Positions 47,575 through 57,055 of a stretch of DNA of 64,000 nucleotides are shown piece after piece. The position numbers and the translations under genes were made by a program. The stretch spans positions 124,001-188,000 of the forward strand of contig NZ_VKKH01000006.1 of NCBI RefSeq assembly GCF_007197995.1, written 5' to 3'. The notes under the pieces were generated by a model, which had not been told where the DNA came from, ran no database searches, and worked only from the letters and a program-made list of their open reading frames with translations. Numbering within the stretch: position 1 is the stretch's first letter; every line of letters begins with the position of its first letter. Origin of the DNA: Aliiglaciecola sp. M165. Its GTDB lineage: Bacteria > Pseudomonadota > Gammaproteobacteria > Enterobacterales > Alteromonadaceae.

Positions 47575-47590
47575 CCGACCCTGACTTGAA
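47575..47590. repeat. Left attachment-site core of the island
   Basis: CCGACCCTGACTTGAA, identical and in direct orientation to 56986-57001 inside the tRNA gene, which it matches over the T-arm. Sequence on both sides differs: the tRNA acceptor-CCA part is not present here, only a T-rich tract on the minus strand. It marks the far end of the element or an older decayed copy. Confidence 0.75.
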
Positions 47591-47694
47591 TTTGGCGGTT
47601 AACTGTTTGATATTAAATAGTTAAATGCCTTTATAATGATATGGTTGTTACTTACGGTGTTACATTGGATAAAAGTCATTAAACTCAATAATTG

Positions 47695-48843
47695 CTATAA
47701 CGAAGAAGTAAATCCCTCTTTTTCAAGTGACTTCATGACGCCTCTAATCAGTACGCTGTTAGTGAAATCAATCATATAAGTTCTAGCATTTTCTCTAACG
47801 GGACGAATCATTCGAGCTTCATTAAGCTTTGTTATTTGATAGGTTATTTGTCTTGGCGTTAATTGCGGAAGCATTTCTTTTAAATCATTTGCTTTAAATT
47901 GTCCTATATCCGCCGCAAACCTAAGTATTTTATCTTCGTCTTTTGAGATAAGACCTTTTTGTATCGCTTCGGTAATGGCAGGGTAAAGTATTTGTGATTT
48001 AAGGTAGTCATGCCTCGTTAGTTTGTCTACTTTGCTTAATTCATGCTTTATTCCAGACAGAGCATAAGTTGTCCATTCCTCCAAGCCTTCATCTGTGCCT
48101 CGATCAGCCTTTTCCAGCATTTCGTAATACCGTTCCCTGTCATTACAAAACACAGCTGTAGGATTGAGTACTCTTCCACCTACTTGAACTTCAAACCCAA
48201 ATTTAAGCAGCAAAGCGTAAGTAAAAAGTCTTACGACTCGGCCATTTCCATTAGTAAATGGGTGTGCCCACGCAAATCTGTGATGCGCTAACGCAACCTT
48301 CATCAAGTCATAAATTGGCTTATCTTCTGAGTTAACAAATTTTAGAATTTCATCCATGTGTTCTTGAACTTGTAAAGAGTCTGGAGGGGTATGCTTGGAA
48401 CCAGCAATTCTTACATTTCCAGAACGATATTTTCCAGGTGTGCGGTCTCCTTCTTGATTTATTGATAGATTTAAAACGGTCAGTTGATGAAGTTCTTTGA
48501 TGAATGAATGTGTTATCTCGTAGCCAGTTGAAACTTCCTCATCAACAAAGGCCAACGCTGCTTCAATATTCTGTATTTCTTGAATATCCTCTTCGGGAGA
48601 GTCGACTTCTTTTGAAACTTTGGTTTCTATATAATCAGCTAAAGTCGTATGGTTTCCTTCGATTCTTGCTGAGCCAAGACTTTCCAATAGGTGGAATATT
48701 TCTTTTAACTGAAAAAATATAGGGGCAGGGGTGTCACCACGCAACACAAGACGTCTCGAAGCTTCAAGCTCGACAATCACTTCGTTAAGTGCTGAGTCGA
48801 AGCTAGGCTTTATAAGTCTCAATTTAAATCCATTTTCACTCAC
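47695..48843 (-). CDS. Class II Fic family AMP-transferase
   Basis: Fic-domain protein of 382 residues that would transfer AMP (or another nucleotide) to target proteins. The active-site motif HPFTNGNGRVVR has catalytic His194; Asn replaces the usual Asp/Glu before the GNGR. An N-terminal inhibitory helix motif SARIEGN (Ser58, Glu62, Gly63) makes it class II, so activity is held in check within the protein. The C-terminal 100 residues look like a winged helix (TPRQITYQITKLNEARMI). It starts at GTG 48843. The upstream region carries five CTACAA repeats that the winged helix may bind. It lies at the far end of the island, where cargo usually sits. Confidence 0.88.
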   Translation of the reverse strand: MSENGFKLRLIKPSFDSALNEVIVELEASRRLVLRGDTPAPIFFQLKEIFHLLESLGSARIEGNHTTLADYIETKVSKEVDSPEEDIQEIQNIEAALAFVDEEVSTGYEITHSFIKELHQLTVLNLSINQEGDRTPGKYRSGNVRIAGSKHTPPDSLQVQEHMDEILKFVNSEDKPIYDLMKVALAHHRFAWAHPFTNGNGRVVRLFTYALLLKFGFEVQVGGRVLNPTAVFCNDRERYYEMLEKADRGTDEGLEEWTTYALSGIKHELSKVDKLTRHDYLKSQILYPAITEAIQKGLISKDEDKILRFAADIGQFKANDLKEMLPQLTPRQITYQITKLNEARMIRPVRENARTYMIDFTNSVLIRGVMKSLEKEGFTSSL

Positions 48844-48882
48844 TTTAAGCGCCTTTGATAATAAATAACGTAGATTGAACAG

Positions 48883-49034
48883 TTAACTACAACTTTTACC
48901 TTAAATATCTACAATTATCAAACGGATTATCTACAATTTTGGTGTCAATATTTATATAAGTGATTGATAATAAATTAAACTTAAAAATACAACTTCAAAA
49001 CTTAACTACAAAATTTAACTTGGATTAACTACAA
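48883..49034. repeat. CTACAA repeat array upstream of Fic
   Basis: CTACAA occurs at 48887, 48909, 48931, 49006 and 49029, each within a TTAA/ATWW context (TTAACTACAA three times, ATCTACAATT twice). Spacings are 22, 22, 75 and 23 bp, all near whole helical turns. The DNA is very AT-rich. It suits an operator or iteron array. Confidence 0.65.
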
Positions 49035-49176
49035 AAAGCGCAACTCAGAATTACAAAGCTCATCGTATAGTTAGGACTAAAAAGTTTTTAATTTCGCGGC
49101 TGTGTAAGAAAAGTTAGTGCGGCGGTACTTCATTTAAAAGTCGTTGAAATTTTACCCGCCCCCATTTATCGAGATA

Positions 49177-49398
49177 CTATATGTTTCTTCCGCTTACCAA
49201 TTCCCATAAGATATGATTAGCTATGCCTTTCATCGAGGTGTGTAGTTCATGAGGTTCATAAACTGCCGGGTCACGCTTACTAAAATTTTTAAAATAAATT
49301 GTTTGTTCTAACTTTCGTTTGCCTGTGACTACTCTGAGGCCAACAAATGTCTGACCTTCAAACTCAATTTCTAAAGTTTCAGTAAAGTTTGTTTTCAC
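49177..49398 (-). CDS. Small hypothetical protein, island
   Basis: A 73-residue protein that starts at GTG 49398 after a perfect AGGAGA ribosome site. It contains LEIEFEGQTFVGLRVVTGKR and ends SGRNI. Predicted small beta-alpha domain. No function recognised. It is the first gene right of the Fic promoter array. Confidence 0.6.
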   Translation of the reverse strand: MKTNFTETLEIEFEGQTFVGLRVVTGKRKLEQTIYFKNFSKRDPAVYEPHELHTSMKGIANHILWELVSGRNI

Positions 49399-49499
49399 AA
49401 TTAATCTCCTATTTTTTGATGGAGATTAGATGTTCAAATATTTTTTGAGGCAGTTTTAGGGGAAAAATCGCAAATAAGATTGAAACACCCGCTTCAAGC

Positions 49500-49931
49500 C
49501 TATTTCAAAAGAATGTAAGCCCATACTGAGTAATAGACGACTGACAACACTGACAAAAAATTGTTTGATCCAAATCGCCCTTTACTCATCGAACCTATCA
49601 ATGTGTATAGCTGTATGTCAGGAGAAATGTTCCATTCAAGCTCTATTTTCCTCATAACATTGCGAGCAATTGAAGTGCTATTCCCATATAGACGATACAT
49701 GTACAAAACTGTTAACCAAAGACTAATTGAGAACAAAAGAAGAGGGAATTTGTACTCTTTGTAGTCTGGATGGGAAGCAAGAACTAAGCAGGTTCCTGCC
49801 AATGGCCAGATTATACTTATTATCATCCAAACAACTCGATTAGCCACATTAATCCATTCTGAAGCTTTAGAGTAAACCTCTTTTAGAGCCTCAAAATCAT
49901 TATGATTATTACTTTCTTTATATTCACTCAA
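49500..49931 (-). CDS. Two-helix membrane protein, island
   Basis: A 143-residue protein with two adjacent transmembrane segments (about residues 35-53 and 61-79) and a third hydrophobic end (125-142). It starts at TTG 49931 with GAGGGAG 11 bp upstream. The N-terminal part is acidic and polar. No family recognised. Membrane effectors are common in defence or abortive-infection modules, but nothing here proves that. Confidence 0.55.
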   Translation of the reverse strand: MSEYKESNNHNDFEALKEVYSKASEWINVANRVVWMIISIIWPLAGTCLVLASHPDYKEYKFPLLLFSISLWLTVLYMYRLYGNSTSIARNVMRKIELEWNISPDIQLYTLIGSMSKGRFGSNNFLSVLSVVYYSVWAYILLK

Positions 49932-49997
49932 TTGAAATAGCTCCCTCTAAAATAGTGACTTTCAAATCGAAAATACTGAAATGAACGTTTTGAAAGA

Positions 49998-50273
49998 TTA
50001 TAACTCATAGTTTCGTCTTGCAACTCCATGCAGCCCCACATAGCCCATTCTATTTAAAAACATGCAGAGCCTAGGCATTGTCCATTCGTTGCCCCAGGCC
50101 GTTCTGAGGCCGCGAGAATGCATATGTTTAAGTACCGTTACGTAGGTTGGTGTGTGCCAAGGACGCTCGCGCATTTCTACTATCTCAATAACGGCTTTTA
50201 ATGTTGCTTGTCGATGTTGTCTAAATTCATCTCTAGTCATTTTTTGCCCAGCGTATGACCTGGAAATAATCAT
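49998..50273 (-). CDS. Small protein with recombinase-domain-like end, island
   Basis: A 91-residue basic protein. Its C-terminal half (LRTAWGNEWTMPRLCMFLNR, then MGYVGLHG) resembles the DNA-binding recombinase domain of large serine recombinases, but no catalytic domain is present. Start at 50273 or 50240 (MTRDEFRQHR); neither has a strong ribosome site. It may be a DNA-binding accessory protein. Unclear. Confidence 0.5.
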   Translation of the reverse strand: MIISRSYAGQKMTRDEFRQHRQATLKAVIEIVEMRERPWHTPTYVTVLKHMHSRGLRTAWGNEWTMPRLCMFLNRMGYVGLHGVARRNYEL

Positions 50274-50435
50274 GATTGCCGTACCATACTTACAGAGTAA
50301 GAAAACTCACGTTCGTTACAATTGCTGGTGGACTAAGTAATTCCGACCTTTCAGCCATTTTATTGCATCAGGAGCTTGCTATTTATTGACCAAAAAGTGG
50401 GGTCTCATAACGATGTCCGAAAAATCGCGATTGAT

Positions 50436-50642
50436 TCAATCAAACATTCTTCTATATCTGTCCACCAGCCTACGAAAAAATGATTGTTCATATTCTTCAT
50501 CCATCGAACTTGCTCTTGTGATTCTAATGCTCGGATGCAAATCAATTGGTAGTGTGATTTTTGACCCGTTGAGTGTTTCAATGGAGCTTTCGCGGATATC
50601 TTTTGAGATTTGGTTTGTTTGAGATTCTTTGCTTTCAATCAT
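50436..50642 (-). CDS. Small hypothetical protein, island
   Basis: A 68-residue charged protein (MIESKESQTNQISKDIRESS) ending in an arginine-rich helix. The ATG at 50642 has AAAGG 10 bp upstream. Two other frames overlap it but have poorer composition. Function unknown. Confidence 0.5.
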   Translation of the reverse strand: MIESKESQTNQISKDIRESSIETLNGSKITLPIDLHPSIRITRASSMDEEYEQSFFRRLVDRYRRMFD

Positions 50643-50693
50643 CCTCAAAGCCTTTTTAAAATTAAAATGTTCTCAATTGAATTAACTTTATTG

Positions 50694-51296
50694 CTATCCA
50701 ATTTCCTTCATTAACAAGTCGAGCATAGCATCCTCTTTTTCTGCCCCTTTGAATTTTAAGTCGAAGTACGTTTTATATCGCATAAATTTGGGCTTGTGTA
50801 AGCTTCTCACCCCATCGAATGGACTTAGTGATGCAGAAGGTGCCAATCTATGCTGGTAGCGCCTGAGAGATCTTATAGAACGATCTAGCTTACTCTCATT
50901 AACGGAAGGGTGAACCAATCCGAGACAATGGCGACAACGGAAATATTTTCCAGCGTAAAGCAGTAACACATTTTTGCGGCAATCAGGACAATCGAAGTAA
51001 TAGCGTTCACCACCAAAATTGCAAGACTTCTTATTGATAGGGATGTAATCAACAATTTCTATTGGTTCACCATTGCTAGGAGTAAATGTGTATCGCAACT
51101 TTAAACAATCTTTTTCTGCTGCCATTAGAATTTGAGCTTGTTCGTTGCCGCTAACATTCCAACTGTAGGTCATGTAATGTTTCGAATGTAACCACGGAGT
51201 TTTGCCAATCACGCGCATGTCTAAAGCCAAATAATCTGTCGTCAAATTCGTTTTTGTATAGTATCTGCAGTAACTTCCCGATCCGCGACCACCCAT
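50694..51296 (-). CDS. MGGRGSG-type zinc-ribbon protein, island
   Basis: A 200-residue protein starting MGGRGSGSYCRYYTK, an N-terminus common to an island-linked family. A zinc ribbon uses CPDC and CRHC near residues 109 and 127. The ATG at 51296 has a GGAGG site 8 bp upstream; a start at 51308 is unlikely. A helical end carries LRRYQHRL. Members are found in integrative elements of Vibrio and Alteromonas relatives. No function established. Confidence 0.75.
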   Translation of the reverse strand: MGGRGSGSYCRYYTKTNLTTDYLALDMRVIGKTPWLHSKHYMTYSWNVSGNEQAQILMAAEKDCLKLRYTFTPSNGEPIEIVDYIPINKKSCNFGGERYYFDCPDCRKNVLLLYAGKYFRCRHCLGLVHPSVNESKLDRSIRSLRRYQHRLAPSASLSPFDGVRSLHKPKFMRYKTYFDLKFKGAEKEDAMLDLLMKEIG

Positions 51297-51527
51297 TTGT
51301 GCCTCCAATTGTTTTTAACCCAAATCTACAGGCTAAACTAGGTTTTAAATGTCCTTAACGGTGTCGGAAAACTCAAGACTGCAGCTTCCTCTATGGACTC
51401 CGAAAACCTCAATTTACTAGCCTGCATCTCGCGTACTGCTCCGAAATCTACTCTTACCTTGTTGCGATCTTGTTGTTATTTCCTAAAAATAAAGCTTACC
51501 GCAATCTCACCGTTTTCCTAATTCAAC

Positions 51528-51582
51528 CTTGCCCTAATCTTGCCCTTGTTAATCTCTAGTTCTCGCCCTAATCTCGCCCTTT
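51528..51582. repeat. 34-bp tandem repeat with internal GCCCT copies
   Basis: Two copies of a 34-bp unit start near 51530 and 51564. GCCCT occurs at 51531, 51542, 51565 and 51576 (spacings 11, 23, 11), so copies line up with the helical turn. It lies in the 595-bp gene-free stretch between the zinc-ribbon and winged-helix genes. Confidence 0.6.
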
Positions 51583-51721
51583 TAATCGTTCTCTTTTTCA
51601 GCCCAAATTTTTGTCTTTGCGATTTGTTCCATGTTTTTCTGATGATTCGCTCAATATTCTTAAAAAACTATCGCATTCTAAAACTGCATCTTTTTACTTA
51701 GGGTATGGTTATATATATAGG

Positions 51722-51886
51722 ACACCAAAAAATAAGGGTAGGGCTGAAGTGTTCACTAACCTTAAAAGCCAATAAAATTAACAAAACGCATTTTTACCTA
51801 CCCTTAAAAAATGGTGTTGTCAGAGAGTCCAGCCCTTAAAAAATGGTGTCGAAATGCCGTTTCAACCCTTAAAAAATGGGGTAGTG
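51722..51886. repeat. Iteron-like array beside the winged-helix gene
   Basis: Three direct copies of CCCTTAAAAAATGGTGT (51801, 51833, 51866; the last reads GGGGT) lie 32 and 33 bp apart. A fourth, inverted copy (51722-51742) keeps the outer ACACCA and AGGGTAGG but has its A/T core flipped; it mirrors 51797-51817. The DNA between is A/T-rich and contains TATATATATA. This resembles plasmid or satellite origin iterons. Confidence 0.7.
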
Positions 51887-51891
51887 AAAAT

Positions 51892-52317
51892 TTAAGCAGC
51901 ATGTTTTTTTCCAACAACTTTTAATTCGACGCTGAATGCTCTTATTGGAACTACAGTGGATTTAATTTCCATATCAAACCCTGCAATATCATCTATCGGT
52001 TGCCAAGTTATTGCGTAATAGTTTGGTAGGCGTTTGCCAGCGCCATACAGACCATGTTTAGTTTTCACGATCAGGTTGGCACCAATCAGCTCACCGATGT
52101 TGTTTCTCAACGTTGTATCGCTGCTCCAGCCTCGTTCTTTTAGTTGGCTATGGACAGCACATAACTTGCCGTTATTGTTTCCCCTATACTGCAAAGCAAA
52201 CTCGAATAGCAAAGCCTTGGCACTGAAACTACGTTCGTAGTAATCGGGGTGATTCATCACGACATCAGGGACGCCAGCAAAGCGTCCCTTATTCTTCTTG
52301 TGCTTGATTCTGGCCAT
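51892..52317 (-). CDS. Winged-helix protein, possible replication/regulatory factor, island
   Basis: A 141-residue basic protein with a family pattern common in integrative islands: KGRFAGVPDVVMNHPDYY, SAKALLFEFALQYRGNNNGK, LKERGWSSDTTLRNNIGELI and YYAITWQPIDD. The central part looks like a winged helix. Its stop codon is 6 bp before the iteron-like array, so it may bind those repeats. A replication-initiator role is inferred only. The ATG follows AGG. Confidence 0.65.
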   Translation of the reverse strand: MARIKHKKNKGRFAGVPDVVMNHPDYYERSFSAKALLFEFALQYRGNNNGKLCAVHSQLKERGWSSDTTLRNNIGELIGANLIVKTKHGLYGAGKRLPNYYAITWQPIDDIAGFDMEIKSTVVPIRAFSVELKVVGKKHAA

Positions 52318-52325
52318 ATTTGAGC

Positions 52326-52565
52326 CTATCGGCCACTAACCGCATCATTGACGACGTAAAGCCTTGCAACAGCTTCTGAGATCGTTTTGCCATTTGTGCT
52401 TAGTTCTTCAAGTAAGTCACAAACAACGCTCACAGAGTCGCAAAGATCGCTTTTAAGGCATTCGTCATTTCCACCAGCAATAACAACTAAATTACCGATT
52501 GCTTTTGCTTGCTCTAATCGTTTTTGATGGCGATCTAAGACTGGGAGTAATTCACACTTTTTCAT
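52326..52565 (-). CDS. Small hypothetical protein, island
   Basis: A 79-residue, mostly helical acidic protein with three cysteines (MKKCELLPVLDRHQKRLEQA at its start). The ATG has GGAGGATGC upstream and overlaps the HTH gene's stop by four bases (ATGA), so they are translationally coupled. No family recognised. Confidence 0.6.
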   Translation of the reverse strand: MKKCELLPVLDRHQKRLEQAKAIGNLVVIAGGNDECLKSDLCDSVSVVCDLLEELSTNGKTISEAVARLYVVNDAVSGR

Positions 52566-52876
52566 GCTGCATCCTCCAAACCCGTTATTTTCCCGTTATT
52601 TTGCGGCCTCACTCTCAAAATGTATCTAGCAATTCCTCTGTGAAGTTTGCCGTCCTGTGTTCTTACATCCTCTCGAATTGATAAAATATCGTAGCCTCTT
52701 TGCCTCAATTCTAGAATGCGCGGAGCTGGGCTGATAAACCCTTTTTCACGAAACTCTAGCGTGTTAATTGAAACACTTTTTTCGAGAAGTGCTAACATTT
52801 GAAGGCGCTGTGCATGAGCGCTTGTGTCTTTGCTATTTAAAGGGCTTCTTGCGTTGCTGTTAGAAGTCTTTTTCAT
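52562..52876 (-). CDS. Helix-turn-helix protein of integrative-island type
   Basis: A 104-residue protein with the pattern typical of small winged helix proteins next to AlpA in P4-like islands: VSINTLEFREKGFISPAPRI, then LELRQRGYDI, then ED-V-TQDGKLHRGIARYIL. It starts at ATG 52876 with a GGAGG site. It would bind DNA, probably for excision or replication control. It overlaps the 79-residue gene by four bases and lies 11 bp after AlpA. Confidence 0.7.
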   Translation of the reverse strand: MKKTSNSNARSPLNSKDTSAHAQRLQMLALLEKSVSINTLEFREKGFISPAPRILELRQRGYDILSIREDVRTQDGKLHRGIARYILRVRPQNNGKITGLEDAA

Positions 52877-52887
52877 TTCTAAGCCTC

Positions 52888-53163
52888 CTATGCTGCAATT
52901 GACGAAACAAAAGCGTCGGCAGCTTGCTTTCGCTTTTCAATCAAAGAGACTACTAACGATTTGATTTCTTTGTCGGAGTAACCCGCCGCCATTGCAGACA
53001 ATACGCCCTTAATTTCGTGCTCGTAGTAACCGACTGCACGCCCTCCAAGAGAAAATGGAGGGGGCATTAGTTGATTTTGCACTCGCCTATAAATGCAAGT
53101 CTTTGATAGGTTGCTCAGGGACATGACGTCACAGAGCTTGATGATTTTAATTTGTCGTTCCAT
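52888..53163 (-). CDS. AlpA-family regulator / excisionase
   Basis: AlpA-type helix-turn-helix protein, 91 residues. The core KLCDVMSLSNLSKTCIYRRV and MPPPFSLGGRAVGYYEHEI match the MerR-like DNA-binding fold of AlpA. The ATG at 53163 follows AAAGGTGA by 9 bp; a longer form from 53205 is less likely. In P4-type islands AlpA drives integrase expression or excision, and here an integrase sits 2.4 kb away on the same strand. Confidence 0.88.
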   Translation of the reverse strand: MERQIKIIKLCDVMSLSNLSKTCIYRRVQNQLMPPPFSLGGRAVGYYEHEIKGVLSAMAAGYSDKEIKSLVVSLIEKRKQAADAFVSSIAA

Positions 53164-53270
53164 AAAGTTCACCTTTGTTTCATGTTGATTCAAGTGAACA
53201 TTCATAGATTTTCAGGATTTAGTCATTGCAATTGCAATAAAAAACTAAAAACTATAATTCGTGAATTACA

Positions 53271-54572
53271 TTATTTTTTGTCTTCTAATTTTCTCTCTGC
53301 CTGCGCTAAAAAGTTATGAAGGTTTGTCTCACCTACACCGTGAAGATTTGGATATTTTTCTAGTATCTCAAGTACAAGATGGTTTTTGTTTCTATACCCA
53401 GGGCTTTCCCTCAAACGCTCATACAAAATTCCCATAGTCAGCCAAGCACCTTTAGTTAGGGCTGGCTCAGAGTTGTGATCACTATCATTTTTAGTTTTCT
53501 TTAGAATTTCCATTTCGTATCTGCGAACTTCTCTACACGAGACAACTAAATGCTGTATTTCTAGGTTCCAACCGTTAGGTGGGGACAAGTCAACTCTAAA
53601 ACCTGCCGCTCTTGCACTAACTTGTGCGGTTTTACCCTTATAAACGACACGCTTATATGTGTCTCGATCAATTGCGGCGAGTTCGGCCAAGGGTGATGAG
53701 TTGTCTAGTGGACTCAATAAGTAAGGAAACTCAAATCCATCTCTGTAGCCATTTTCTTGTATATGAATCGTGTCTAACTTAAAGTTGATAAGAGGGGAGA
53801 CCGTGTCATATCTGCCCGAACCGAAATAGTACCTTGTTTTTCCCTCATTGATAGCACTGCAATTGATACATATTTCCAAATTACCTATTTCTGCTTCATG
53901 TCTTATGTCATTTTGATTAAGCCCAAACTTTTTCCATCGTTCAATTAAGCTTTCGATATCAAACCACAATTTTCCATCTAGGGGGAGTTCTTGCTGCTGT
54001 TCACGTTCCACATCTATTTTAAGAGGAAAATATTTCTCTATAATAGGTGGCGTAACCCCTAGCCCTATTATGACTGCCTCTAAACCACTTTTACCGAAGC
54101 AATCGTGAACAACCTGAATAAAATCTATAAATTCTTCTGAGTCGAGATTAAATTGCTCCGGCAAACAATGCAGAGTGTGAATCAACCAGGTGCCCGCTTC
54201 CGTTGATGTCAATACTCCGAAGTCACCCGATTTAGAAACGCCTCTTACTAGCTCATTGAGAAATGTGTTTAAGGTGATTTTGGTTTGTGTACATTTTGAA
54301 AGGTTTTCGAACAGTTTGATTTTAAGCTTTTCTATTACGTCATTTTGGCTATCAATTTCGTCATCATTTGCTTCTCCACGAACCATCCTTCTAAACCTAT
54401 TGTATGCTTCTTCATGATGAGACTTAATCTTGCTTATGTCTGCGGCAGATTCCTTTTCAACCGTGTGCCACTCCATACTCGTGACATCGAGCTTCGCCTC
54501 TAAAACCAGAGGCATACATAGTTCTGCAGTGACTAAAACATTTCCATACTCCTCGACAAGATTTATCGCCAT
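53271..54572 (-). CDS. Large unknown island protein (433 residues)
   Basis: Not recognised. The ATG at 54572 has GGAGGGAG 8 bp upstream. An N-terminal helical part (residues 30-100) is acidic; residues about 170-240 hold a long linker with EREQQQELPLDGKLWFDIES; residues 300-350 are beta-rich with SARAAGFRVDLSPPNGWNLE. The end is helical (LTKGAWLTMGILYERLRESP, then ILEKYPNLHGVGETNL). A Cys pair in CINCSAIN hints at a metal site. Its size and position between the regulators and the twin 141-residue genes make it a possible effector of the island. Confidence 0.7.
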   Translation of the reverse strand: MAINLVEEYGNVLVTAELCMPLVLEAKLDVTSMEWHTVEKESAADISKIKSHHEEAYNRFRRMVRGEANDDEIDSQNDVIEKLKIKLFENLSKCTQTKITLNTFLNELVRGVSKSGDFGVLTSTEAGTWLIHTLHCLPEQFNLDSEEFIDFIQVVHDCFGKSGLEAVIIGLGVTPPIIEKYFPLKIDVEREQQQELPLDGKLWFDIESLIERWKKFGLNQNDIRHEAEIGNLEICINCSAINEGKTRYYFGSGRYDTVSPLINFKLDTIHIQENGYRDGFEFPYLLSPLDNSSPLAELAAIDRDTYKRVVYKGKTAQVSARAAGFRVDLSPPNGWNLEIQHLVVSCREVRRYEMEILKKTKNDSDHNSEPALTKGAWLTMGILYERLRESPGYRNKNHLVLEILEKYPNLHGVGETNLHNFLAQAERKLEDKK

Positions 54573-54661
54573 AACCGCTCCCTCCACGATACCCTAATAA
54601 TCACCAAGTCAGGCCAGTAGGGTTCTGGCCTTTCGGGAGCTACCCTAGACTTGGTAAACTC

Positions 54662-55087
54662 TTAAGCTGCTTTCTTCTTTGGATTTAGCAGCAAATCATC
54701 AAAAGCTTCTCCAGCTTTAAACAATGCCGAATGCATTGCAAATAAACTAACTATTTGAGCACCATCCAATTCCGTTTGGTTAGGGACTAAGTCGCTATAA
54801 TCTTCCATAATCGATTCGACCATTGAGTTTATTTGCCAAAGTGCTTTGTTAGCTCTAAAGAGTTCAGAAAAACCAGCTGATTTAAGCTCGTTTTCATTGA
54901 AGATTTTTAGATCCTCAATAAGGCTTTTCATTTTAACTTCTACATGGTGAAACACATTCAATCTATCTTTGATTTCTTTCTGGTTTGAAGTCGTAGATAT
55001 ATACTTTTGACATGTAACAATCGACAATGCCTGCTCAAACAAGCAGTAAACATCGCAAATCCTTGTGTCTAGTTGTATTTGATTCAT
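54662..55087 (-). CDS. Unknown helical protein (first of two 141-residue neighbours)
   Basis: A 141-residue acidic helical protein starting MNQIQLDTRICDVYCLFEQA and ending LLLNPKKKAA. It has the same length as the next upstream gene, and both carry an early L-x-T stretch, a mid-region with acidic helices and the end KAA, so they may be diverged duplicates. No family recognised. The gene is followed by a GC-rich repeat-like spacer that contains the dyad-like GGGTTCTGGCCTTTCGGG. Confidence 0.6.
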   Translation of the reverse strand: MNQIQLDTRICDVYCLFEQALSIVTCQKYISTTSNQKEIKDRLNVFHHVEVKMKSLIEDLKIFNENELKSAGFSELFRANKALWQINSMVESIMEDYSDLVPNQTELDGAQIVSLFAMHSALFKAGEAFDDLLLNPKKKAA

Positions 55088-55102
55088 ATCTAGCTCTCCC
55101 AG

Positions 55103-55528
55103 TTAAGCAGCTTTCAAAACGGGCTGGTTTTTACACTCATGAAGTTTCTGCCCAATATCATGAAGATGCAAAAACGCACCTTGCAAGGCTTTGTTCAACA
55201 TCTCAGATTCTGATATGTCAGACTCGTCAGAGCTTAACCTTAAGTCCAAAGCATATTGCATTGTTTCCCCTAGCTCATGTATCTCTTCGCGTAAGTTTGA
55301 TATAACTTCAGTTGTGATCTTTGTATAAGGACGTTCGTCCAAATAAAGCATTCGTTTCTTCAATTCCTCGGATAACAAATTGATGTTTTTAACCTTGCGA
55401 TTAAATTTAATTAGGTCTTTCCTAGTGCTTAAACTGCTAAGCCTCTCAATACATTCGACCATTGCACAGTAGTTTTCATAAGCCAGTGAGATGTCAAATA
55501 GCTCTGTATTTAGTTCGAAATTGCTCAT
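55103..55528 (-). CDS. Unknown helical protein (second of two 141-residue neighbours)
   Basis: A 141-residue helical protein (MSNFELNTELFDISLAYENY at its start) ending CKNQPVLKAA. It lies 15 bp upstream of the first twin on the same strand and 29 bp from the integrase stop. Its sequence is acidic and heptad-like, consistent with helical bundles, and no family is recognised. It may be a partner of the twin. Confidence 0.6.
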   Translation of the reverse strand: MSNFELNTELFDISLAYENYCAMVECIERLSSLSTRKDLIKFNRKVKNINLLSEELKKRMLYLDERPYTKITTEVISNLREEIHELGETMQYALDLRLSSDESDISESEMLNKALQGAFLHLHDIGQKLHECKNQPVLKAA

Positions 55529-55557
55529 AATAAATCCCTCTTTCTGATTTTTGGTGG

Positions 55558-56805
55558 TTATTGGTTAACAAGCCTCAGGGCTTGCTTTGAGTTTGACAGG
55601 CTAACGTTACCTGTCGCGGCATCTTCAATATGTTGTGACCACCAGCACATGAGCTTTCTTCTTCTTTCTAGGTACTCAGCGCGGTTGTAGGCTCGTCTTA
55701 CTTCGTTTTTATCAACGTGGGCGAGGGCGCTTTCAATCACATCGGGATCGAAGCCTTGTTCATTTAGAGTGGTGCTAGCCAGTGCTCGTAAACCATGTGA
55801 CACCAATTCACCCGCGAAACCTATGCGTTTCAGTGCCATGTTTGCTGATTGGGTGTTGGCGTGGGAGTGAGCGTTTCTATGACTAGGGAATAAATAGGTT
55901 CTGTGGCCACTAATGGGTTTGAGCAGTTCGAGTAAAGATAACATTTGAGGAGTGAGGGGGATTGTATGGGGACGACCCATTTTCATGCGTTCAGCTGGAA
56001 TAACCCAAACTTGTTTTTCGAAGTCGATTTCTTCCCATTTCGCTTTGGCTGCTTCTGCTGGTCTTGTCATGGTGTGCAATTGCCACTCAACAAGACAACG
56101 CGTCACCAACATGATGTTAGCCCTAGCTAAGTTTTGCATAAGCTCTGGCAAGCGATCAGGCGTGATGGTAGCCATATTCTTTTTCTGAGGTGCTGCGAAT
56201 AGCTTGGTAATGTCTGTGAGGTAATTTACTTCGATAAGACCAGAAGCAAGAGCAATGCGCATGACTTCATTGATAGTCCTGCAAAGCCGCTTAACCGTCT
56301 CTCTACTGCCTTTAGCTTCAATTGGCTTGAGTATATCAATGACCATTTTAGGCTTTAGCTGGTGGATAGGTGTTGATTCAATAGCGGGTAGTACGTGTTT
56401 GCTCAATATCTGCCAAGACTTATCGGCCGTCTCTTTTTTAACTTCCTTTAGTTTGAGTTGGTACCATTTCTCAGCCACCACACCAAAGGTATTTTCCATC
56501 GCTTCTTTTTGTTCTCGTGCGGTTTGTTCTTTGTGGTATTTCGGATCGACATTGTTGGCAAGGAGGGTTCTAGCTGCCTCCTTTTTCCTTCTGGCATCGG
56601 CTAGTGAAACATCAGGATAGGAGCCAAAGCCTATATTGGTTCTTTTCTTGGTGTGAGGGTTTGAATAATTGAATAACCAGAACTTATTGCCATTTGGCTT
56701 AACTCTCAATGCAAGGCCGCCACCATCTGCCAAGTTATATTCTTTCTCTCGCGGTTTGGCTTGCTTAACTTCTGTGTTAGTTAGAGGTTTGGTGGTGTTC
56801 GCCAT
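55558..56805 (-). CDS. P4-type tyrosine integrase
   Basis: A 415-residue phage-type tyrosine recombinase with an N-terminal DUF4102 domain (LADGGGLALRVKPNGNKFW) and a core SAM-like region. Catalytic residues: Arg248 (MTRPAEAAK), His337-x-x-Arg340 (HGLRALAS), His363 and nucleophile Tyr373 (AYNRAEYLERR). I start at ATG 56805, since the longer frame begins with TTG at 56823. It lies 173 bp from the tRNA, which is its expected integration target. Confidence 0.95.
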   Translation of the reverse strand: MANTTKPLTNTEVKQAKPREKEYNLADGGGLALRVKPNGNKFWLFNYSNPHTKKRTNIGFGSYPDVSLADARRKKEAARTLLANNVDPKYHKEQTAREQKEAMENTFGVVAEKWYQLKLKEVKKETADKSWQILSKHVLPAIESTPIHQLKPKMVIDILKPIEAKGSRETVKRLCRTINEVMRIALASGLIEVNYLTDITKLFAAPQKKNMATITPDRLPELMQNLARANIMLVTRCLVEWQLHTMTRPAEAAKAKWEEIDFEKQVWVIPAERMKMGRPHTIPLTPQMLSLLELLKPISGHRTYLFPSHRNAHSHANTQSANMALKRIGFAGELVSHGLRALASTTLNEQGFDPDVIESALAHVDKNEVRRAYNRAEYLERRRKLMCWWSQHIEDAATGNVSLSNSKQALRLVNQ

Positions 56806-56978
56806 TGTAACAATTCCGTTCAAAAATAAATCTGATTGTTAAGTTCTATGTTACATAAAAGCGTGGTTGTTACAAAGCGCTAAAGAACCTTACGGAACGG
56901 TAAAGTATATCAAGCCCTTGATTTTAAAGGTGTTAAAGTTCGTTAAAGTTTAATTGAGAACGCTATGGAACATAAAAA

Positions 56979-57055
56979 TGGTGGCCCGACCCTGACTTGA
57001 ACAGGGGACCTGCCGATTATGAGTCGGATGCTCTAACCAACTGAGCTATCGGGCC
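56979..57055 (-). tRNA. tRNA with CAU anticodon, probably tRNA-Ile2
   Basis: 77 bases on the minus strand, 5' end at 57055, with encoded CCA. The acceptor GGCCCGA pairs with TCGGGCC; the anticodon loop CTCATAA gives CAU. The acceptor, D-arm and anticodon stem resemble E. coli ileX (Ile2, whose C34 becomes lysidine) more than elongator Met, so Ile2 is the likelier identity. The T-arm contains the 16-bp core 56986-57001 used as the island's attachment site. Confidence 0.9.

Follow-up and report, generated by a model that had tools for sequence, protein, structure and literature searches.

How can a small genomic island replicate and spread when no packaging gene is recognised in it? This question is raised by an island at tRNA-Met of Aliiglaciecola sp. 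M165, which occupies 47575-57001 of the 64,000 nucleotides of contig NZ_VKKH01000006.1 analysed here (positions 124,001 to 188,000, hereafter the window). An earlier note on this DNA had taken it for an integrative element, either a phage satellite or a plasmid-like element. Our comparisons support this description and favour a satellite, because the initiator chassis is common to elements with head genes in the same genus and two Alteromonas genomes have the gene order integrase-AlpA-HTH_39-initiator at this same tRNA-Met. Integration site, gene order, an origin-like array and the shared chassis are established at the level of sequence. On these grounds the island is best regarded, with fair though limited confidence, as a capsid-less phage satellite that would depend on a helper, has an origin of its own and carries Fic as cargo. 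The element group to which it seems to belong, some members of which have virus shell genes, probably spreads by exploiting bacterial viruses. The term "undescribed" used earlier holds in part: satellites are known, whereas our searches of the open-licence literature did not turn up a chassis that combines a RepA_N-like initiator, iterons and exchangeable distal modules.

The island and its integration site

Two exact direct copies of the 16-bp core CCGACCCTGACTTGAA span 9,427 bp. The second copy lies inside the gene for tRNA-Met(cat), which presumably could also be tRNA-Ile2 by its sequence features, and the P4-type integrase stands beside it, as the earlier note had proposed. No further direct match of at least 11 bp was found between 56956-57055 and 35.0-56.9 kb. 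The motif TGTTACA, a possible integrase arm site, occurs 11 times in the window and 5 of these copies are at the two island ends. In 1-kb steps the GC content is 35-44% in the island and 39-49% in the rest of the window.

The gene content agrees with what had been read from the letters. All named island genes are on the minus strand, the plus strand containing shorter mechanical open reading frames (ORFs), and AlpA, the HTH_39 winged-helix protein and Fic are present. The 13 island proteins were scanned with Pfam (10 proteins), PHROGs (11), NCBIfam (10) and PADLOC (10); no capsid, terminase, portal, relaxase, conjugation, partition or transfer family was recognised among those scanned. The island thus has the parts by which phage satellites are broadly defined, namely an integrase, an excision regulator and a replication gene (a role assigned from fold and iterons), without a full virion set; the scans recognised no head, tail or packaging family in the window.

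Within the genus set (n=9, own genome included) the 3' side of tRNA-Met is variable. In G003, G006, G007 and G008 no copy of the core with up to 2 mismatches was found in the 4.7-14.8 kb examined 3' of tRNA-Met; G001 has one near-copy 4.9 kb from the tRNA, and in G004 (59% complete) the locus was not located. G002 and G005 have different islands at this site. The tRNA end is copied there over 45-46 bp, and the islands have an integrase, a primase (DUF5906 or DUF3987) and genes that look AlpA-like by eye. These data are in keeping with an insertion at tRNA-Met, and no conserved chromosomal locus containing the island genes was found. The C39 flank gene is located elsewhere in four congeners. 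The islands of G002 and G005 (L050:3067-13400 and L047:6942-14884, respectively) are integrase-AlpA-like-primase islands unrelated to the one studied here, one of them with defence-like genes by eye. Three satellite-like families thus use one tRNA-Met site within one genus.

A putative RepA_N-like initiator and its iterons

The fold of P0005 is suggestive of a RepA_N initiator. Its structure model (mean pLDDT 84.8) retrieved RepA_N initiators at PDB ranks 1-4, 5kbj, 4pql and 4pt7 among them, with E-values from 8e-3 to 3e-2. Behind its gene, the array previously called iteron-like at 51.7-51.9 kb consists of three direct copies, spaced 32 and 33 bp apart, together with an imperfect copy in inverted orientation at 51722-51742. 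The AT-rich TATATATATA at 51710-51719 adjoins it. The repeats are likely the origin on which P0005 acts, as the following comparison of the family suggests.

Relatives of P0005 were present in 3 of 9 genus genomes and 23 of 369 class genomes (own genome included in both). The search of genome contigs gave 123 relatives, of which the best 80 were used, representing 79 loci; viral contigs contributed 20 more. Repeats were counted as 14-mer copies with at most 2 mismatches from 30 bases before to 230 bases after the rep stop. At least three copies were found behind rep in 50 of 86 family members, or 37 of 70 after removal of near-copies, versus 1/84 upstream regions, 4/258 random stretches and 3/258 Markov sequences. 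A stricter setting gave 36/86 versus 0/84, 1/258 and 0/172. Non-redundant counts are given because certain elements are represented by two loci (L042 and L068; L066 and L141 resemble each other).

Spacings between copies cluster at 21-23, 31-35, 42-45 and 52-54 bp and follow the helical turn, with a vector strength of 0.85 at 10.6 bp (79 same-strand spacings, none above 110 bp, in 37 non-redundant loci); they are not independent, because related elements share layouts. The repeat sequences vary between elements and often are palindromes centred on a short stretch of A or T. Rep similarity correlates with iteron similarity (Mantel r 0.41; 0/5000 permutations), as common ancestry would also produce; comparison supports a pairing of each Rep with its iterons. 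In the 16.2-kb record of vB_Pae_U1 a P0005 relative is annotated as replication protein O, and palindromic repeats are located at and behind its end.

P0005 could instead be a regulator only, with the repeats as its operators and the island non-replicating. It is a bare winged-helix domain whose fold also resembles that of regulators, for example AbfR2, CodY and Fur, at E-values of at least 0.05. However, the repeats are located behind the gene and not before it, as the upstream control indicates, phased arrays of several copies over 20-150 bp look like origins, and plasmid initiators rank first in the fold search. We therefore consider this explanation very improbable. A role of P0005 as a plain transcription factor was rejected for the downstream position of the repeats, although we retained it for comparison.

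A shared chassis with variable modules

The nearest relative, L062 of Alteromonas oceanisediminis (Rep 66%), lies at the same tRNA-Met and has the order integrase, 142 amino acids (aa), int-alpA RNA, 312 aa, AlpA, HTH_39, 75 aa, Rep and terminase small subunit (phrog_4102, E 8.9e-15). L063 of Alteromonas sp. IB21, again at this tRNA-Met, has integrase, RNA, 272 aa, AlpA, HTH_39 and Rep, and the two genes which flank the window island are found 10 kb along, 57% and 63% identical. In the congeners G001 and G003, Rep occurs together with capsid, S78 protease, portal and Terminase_4 genes in a 10-kb element that is repeated at tRNA-Val; L042, L043 and L068 are near-identical copies, and Pfam confirmed each of these head families on one of them. 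Further Pfam confirmations are TerL in a Pseudomonas relative, Terminase_2 in L112 and, in L142, Nu1 together with a second capsid family.

Among 104 loci examined, 92 have an integrase, 50 an AlpA-like and 27 an HTH_39-like gene. Without the 18 loci lacking a rep ORF in the ORF set (L005 among them), 86 rep loci were left, of which 16 carry head genes, 6 P0004, 5 TerL alone and 59 none of these. These are lower bounds, as head genes were detected by iterated hidden Markov models (HMMs); L062 and L112, with a terminase small subunit, and L142, with capsid and Nu1, were scored as none. In seven head-gene loci (L042, L066, L068, L072, L116, L140, L153) 40-bp tRNA repeats are ~9.8-11.4 kb apart. 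On a quick Rep tree, in which 32 of 76 inner branches are unsupported, the distribution of head genes needs 9 changes, at least 7 of them forced by well-supported branches, compared with an average of 14.8 for shuffled labels. The trait therefore seems to be in part inherited and in part exchanged or lost.

These relatives also bear on the idea that the island is a decayed capsid-forming satellite or prophage, in which the integration and replication end was retained after the head genes had been lost. Same-genus relatives of the chassis do carry head genes and the distal boundary looks rearranged. On the other hand, the named island ORFs are open, and HMMs found no head genes in the stretches examined of L062 (terminase small subunit only), L063 and the P0004 carriers L051, L076, L077 and L079, again as a lower bound. 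This suggests a maintained design, and we regard decay as rather improbable. If the island is a satellite as proposed, one replication unit ties head-gene-bearing and capsid-less satellites together, and the P0005 family with its iterons provides a concrete marker for satellites which may escape models based on capsid or primase genes.

Two head-gene elements with the Rep chassis encode their own tape-measure protein (L066:12228-17561 and L142:5736-9568), which suggests tails of own length. We do not present such a gene in related satellites as new, since putative tmp genes in capsid-forming PICIs (cf-PICIs) are reported in the part of PMC12987554 drawn on here. Elements of the same chassis are also found beside tRNA-Ser with 15-bp repeats in Halomonas (L102, L112, L133); that of L112 is ~5 kb long and carries the Terminase_2 small subunit.

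The zinc-ribbon protein P0004

P0004 occupies the place where some relatives carry small terminase or capsid genes, and possibly acts in packaging or late-transcription control. Its family was seen in satellite phages, small plasmids, prophage-like contigs and tRNA islands. Carriers make up 12 of 394 genomes of the order (own included). Eight of the 11 other loci were mapped; seven have an integrase nearby, with tRNA or tmRNA, and the eighth (L056) adjoins a long phage-type protein. All 49 matches in phage records are from Streptococcus, and 18 of the 20 listed are named satellite phages. In L055, P0004 follows a gp3-type packaging protein (PF16677). The fold search of P0004 gave no usable match in PDB or BFVD. 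As a family common to Gram-negative islands, streptococcal satellites and small plasmids, P0004 is a testable candidate for a helper-coupling factor. Relatives beside sigma-70-type factors are located at L169:10481-11200, L170:9048-9716 and L171:2399-3118.

The plasmid links of P0004 are relevant to another explanation, a plasmid-like integrative element replicating via Rep and iterons and spreading by transformation, general transduction or a conjugative helper. The island has its own initiator and iterons, no packaging gene was recognised, and some of the P0004 relatives on small plasmids stand beside rep or Gp2-like genes. But the scans described above also lack relaxase, partition and transfer families, several relatives have head or terminase genes next to Rep, and the Rep family has a single match among 72,556 plasmid records versus 20 loci in viral contigs of IMG/VR, of which nine are on contigs 7.2-11.1 kb long. 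A plasmid-like element consequently appears unlikely to us.

Comparison with known systems

The cf-PICIs are similar in that this Rep chassis also occurs in tRNA elements of ~10-11 kb which carry various subsets of capsid, protease, portal and terminase genes, including those of two congeners and of Pseudomonas aeruginosa PA7. In contrast to these, the window island has no recognised capsid, portal, protease or terminase gene among the proteins scanned. With PICMI (phage-inducible chromosomal minimalist islands), as far as described in the part of PMC10803314 used here, it shares an integrase, often with a gene overlapping or next to it, AlpA, a replication gene, an accessory gene, the lack of capsid-remodelling genes and a marine host. 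The PICMI model, however, needs a DUF3987 or DUF5906 primase and integration at fis, whereas our island has a RepA_N-like replication gene with iterons and the tRNA-Met site. Pfam gave no DUF3987 or DUF5906 match in the 10 of 13 island proteins scanned, and both other genus islands at tRNA-Met have one.

In PLE of Vibrio cholerae a RepA_N domain binds three ~30-bp semi-palindromic iterons, and Rep and origin covary (PMC8263062, in the part cited). The likeness to P0005 and its three repeats is one of description; the RepA of PLE has an extra C-terminal domain, and its origin is noncoding and apart from repA. The tmRNA islands I23, I44 and I55, which are moved by a jumbo phage, resemble the island in their tyrosine integrase, AlpA, short direct repeats, defence cargo and lack of recognised transfer genes. 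They differ in the tmRNA site, an inovirus Gp2-like protein and YqaJ, and a Rep-iteron unit is not mentioned in the passages of PMC12595487 used here. Streptococcal satellite phages of the Javan series have P0004 relatives (25-33% identity among the matches listed), but belong to another phylum, and the two records inspected have a helicase loader or a DNA primase instead of Rep. Hallmarks of P4-like satellites are the alpha primase, psu, sid and delta genes; Pfam, PHROGs and NCBIfam detected none of these in the scanned proteins, only the integrase being of P4 type. As for integrative and mobilizable or integrative and conjugative elements, no relaxase family occurs among the proteins scanned.

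Proposed mechanism and points against it

The P4-type integrase would have inserted the island into the 3' half of the tRNA gene, where the core copies and the adjacent integrase are seen. By analogy to PICMI, AlpA may serve as excision switch together with the integrase. After excision, P0005 would bind the iterons downstream of its gene, which are semi-palindromic and helically phased, and open the AT-rich stretch next to them. Since P0005 is a DNA-binding domain only, parts of the host or helper replisome would have to be recruited through another contact. P0004 is, tentatively, the best candidate for coupling to the helper and might redirect packaging or act on late genes, and Fic and the orphan P0002 would be cargo or slot genes. 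Beyond this island, we tentatively propose an unnamed superfamily of satellites with a one-domain RepA_N-like protein, their own helically phased palindromic iterons and an exchangeable distal module (head genes, a lone small terminase or P0004), in which P0004 would be a cross-phylum satellite factor replacing packaging or late-gene control; this we consider possible rather than probable.

Several observations weigh against the satellite reading. The fold search with P0005 gives no match with an E-value below 0.001, and in the profile search the initiator 4pta is third of three (E 0.022). An array of at least three copies is missing in 36 of 86 relatives, the nearest relatives L062 and L063 have two copies each, and the covariation and the regular spacings are partly due to common ancestry of protein and DNA. 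The Rep tree groups head-gene carriers more tightly than it does shuffled labels, so exchange is not free. A packaging gene was not found in the window, the own genome is without Phage_portal (PF04860) or Terminase_6N (PF03237), and no helper is known. P0004 relatives occur on 17 plasmids, 14 of which are non-mobilizable, and in phage-like contigs they adjoin sigma-70-type factors, a hint to late transcription.

The distal boundary adds to these points. Of the extent given in the earlier note, the right core within tRNA-Met stands and the left end is doubtful. The distal copy is only 16 bp long, the tRNA tail GCCACCA is absent after it, and one TGTTACA motif sits outside it. In L062 and L063 the tail of tRNA-Met is repeated (GGCCACCATTTT, 12 and 13 bp) at 5.6 and 6.3 kb; this tail has no second copy in the window. 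For these reasons the left end is less certain, and the sequence outside the distal core is possibly the remnant of a tandem neighbour.

The int-alpA RNA and the variable slot

The int-alpA RNA lies between P0010 and the orphan P0002. Rfam detects it also in L062, L063, L077 and L064, and the same scan did not find it in L042, L051, L066, L072, L047, L050, L052, L053, L054 and L058. Our own covariance model, built from four copies, found it in 12 of 100 sources, counting those four, and missed the L064 copy; in the order sample 10 of 295 genomes have it. The window, L062 and L063 show it directly preceding mutually unrelated genes in the int-alpA slot. It therefore marks one edge of a variable slot, as an unrelated gene follows it before alpA in both relatives. 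Excision of PICMI requires a gene that overlaps int (PMC10803314, in the part cited), so the genes of the slot may have a function in the element beyond that of cargo.

The RNA as a marker of the P0005 chassis alone was rejected: it is absent from the rep loci L042, L051, L066 and L072, and 10 RNA loci of 9 other genomes have no P0005 relative in the stretch examined, several of these being short contigs. This RNA is already named in one paper of the open-licence literature.

Further features of the island

The coordinates of all features are listed in Table 1.

Table 1. Features of the island at tRNA-Met, with positions in the window
Feature	Position	Strand	Basis or remark
tRNA-Met (anticodon CAT), attachment (att) gene	56979..57055	-	ARAGORN; Rfam RF00005
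Proximal att core, 16 bp, in tRNA 3' half	56986..57001
Three TGTTACA motifs, putative integrase arm sites	56806..56875		56806 (minus), 56849, 56868
P4-type tyrosine integrase P0001	55558..56823	-	NF007246 508.9 bits (cut-off 434); Phage_integrase, Arm-DNA-bind_3; PHROG 1
P0011, 141 aa, beside integrase	55103..55528	-	at position of PICMI iolg/icg gene; role by position only
P0010, 141 aa	54662..55087	-	no convincing family; one PHROG, E 0.098
int-alpA structured RNA	54592..54655	-	Rfam RF02996, 51.4 bits (gathering 35.8)
P0002, orphan, 438 aa	53271..54587	-	in slot between int-alpA RNA and alpA
AlpA excisionase/regulator P0006	52888..53205	-	PF05930 E 7.9e-8
Winged-helix HTH_39 protein P0007	52562..52876	-	PF14090 E 1.2e-12
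P0012, 79 aa, immediately upstream of rep	52326..52565	-	ORF; L062 has 75-aa ORF in same place
RepA_N-like replication initiator P0005, 141 aa, DNA-binding domain only	51892..52317	-	fold and profile matches
Iteron array	51722..51885		direct copies 51800-51820, 51832-51852, 51865-51885
Second, weaker array	51495..51581		three 20-bp repeats, spacing 33 and 34 bp
Zinc-ribbon protein P0004	50694..51308	-
P0008, 91 aa	49998..50273	-	no family (Pfam, PHROGs, NCBIfam, PADLOC scans)
P0009, 143 aa, cargo	49500..49931	-	apparent membrane segments (by eye); Pfam, PADLOC: no family
P0013, 73 aa, cargo	49177..49398	-	ORF; no PHROG
Fic protein P0003, SoFic-like	47695..48843	-	PF02661 E 7.8e-17; PADLOC SoFic E 5.1e-45
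Two more TGTTACA motifs, other island end	47544, 47658
Distal att core, exact 16-bp copy	47575..47590		tRNA tail missing on outer side

PHROGs, NCBIfam and PADLOC gave no family for P0011, and a plasmid search gave no match for P0010. The two proteins were rejected as paralogues, their BLASTP E-value being only 0.06. No homologue of P0002 was found in phages, plasmids or the ORFs of the relatives, and among 295 genomes of the order it was found in the own genome only.

The Fic protein P0003 is probably cargo and a candidate defence gene. It reaches only 41.9 bits with the NCBIfam SoFic model (cut-off 550), and shows HPFTNGNGR and an N-terminal SARIEG, which we take to be Fic motifs. Behind P0004, a possible gene of 68-70 aa with a ribosome-binding site plausible by eye is located at 50436-50648.

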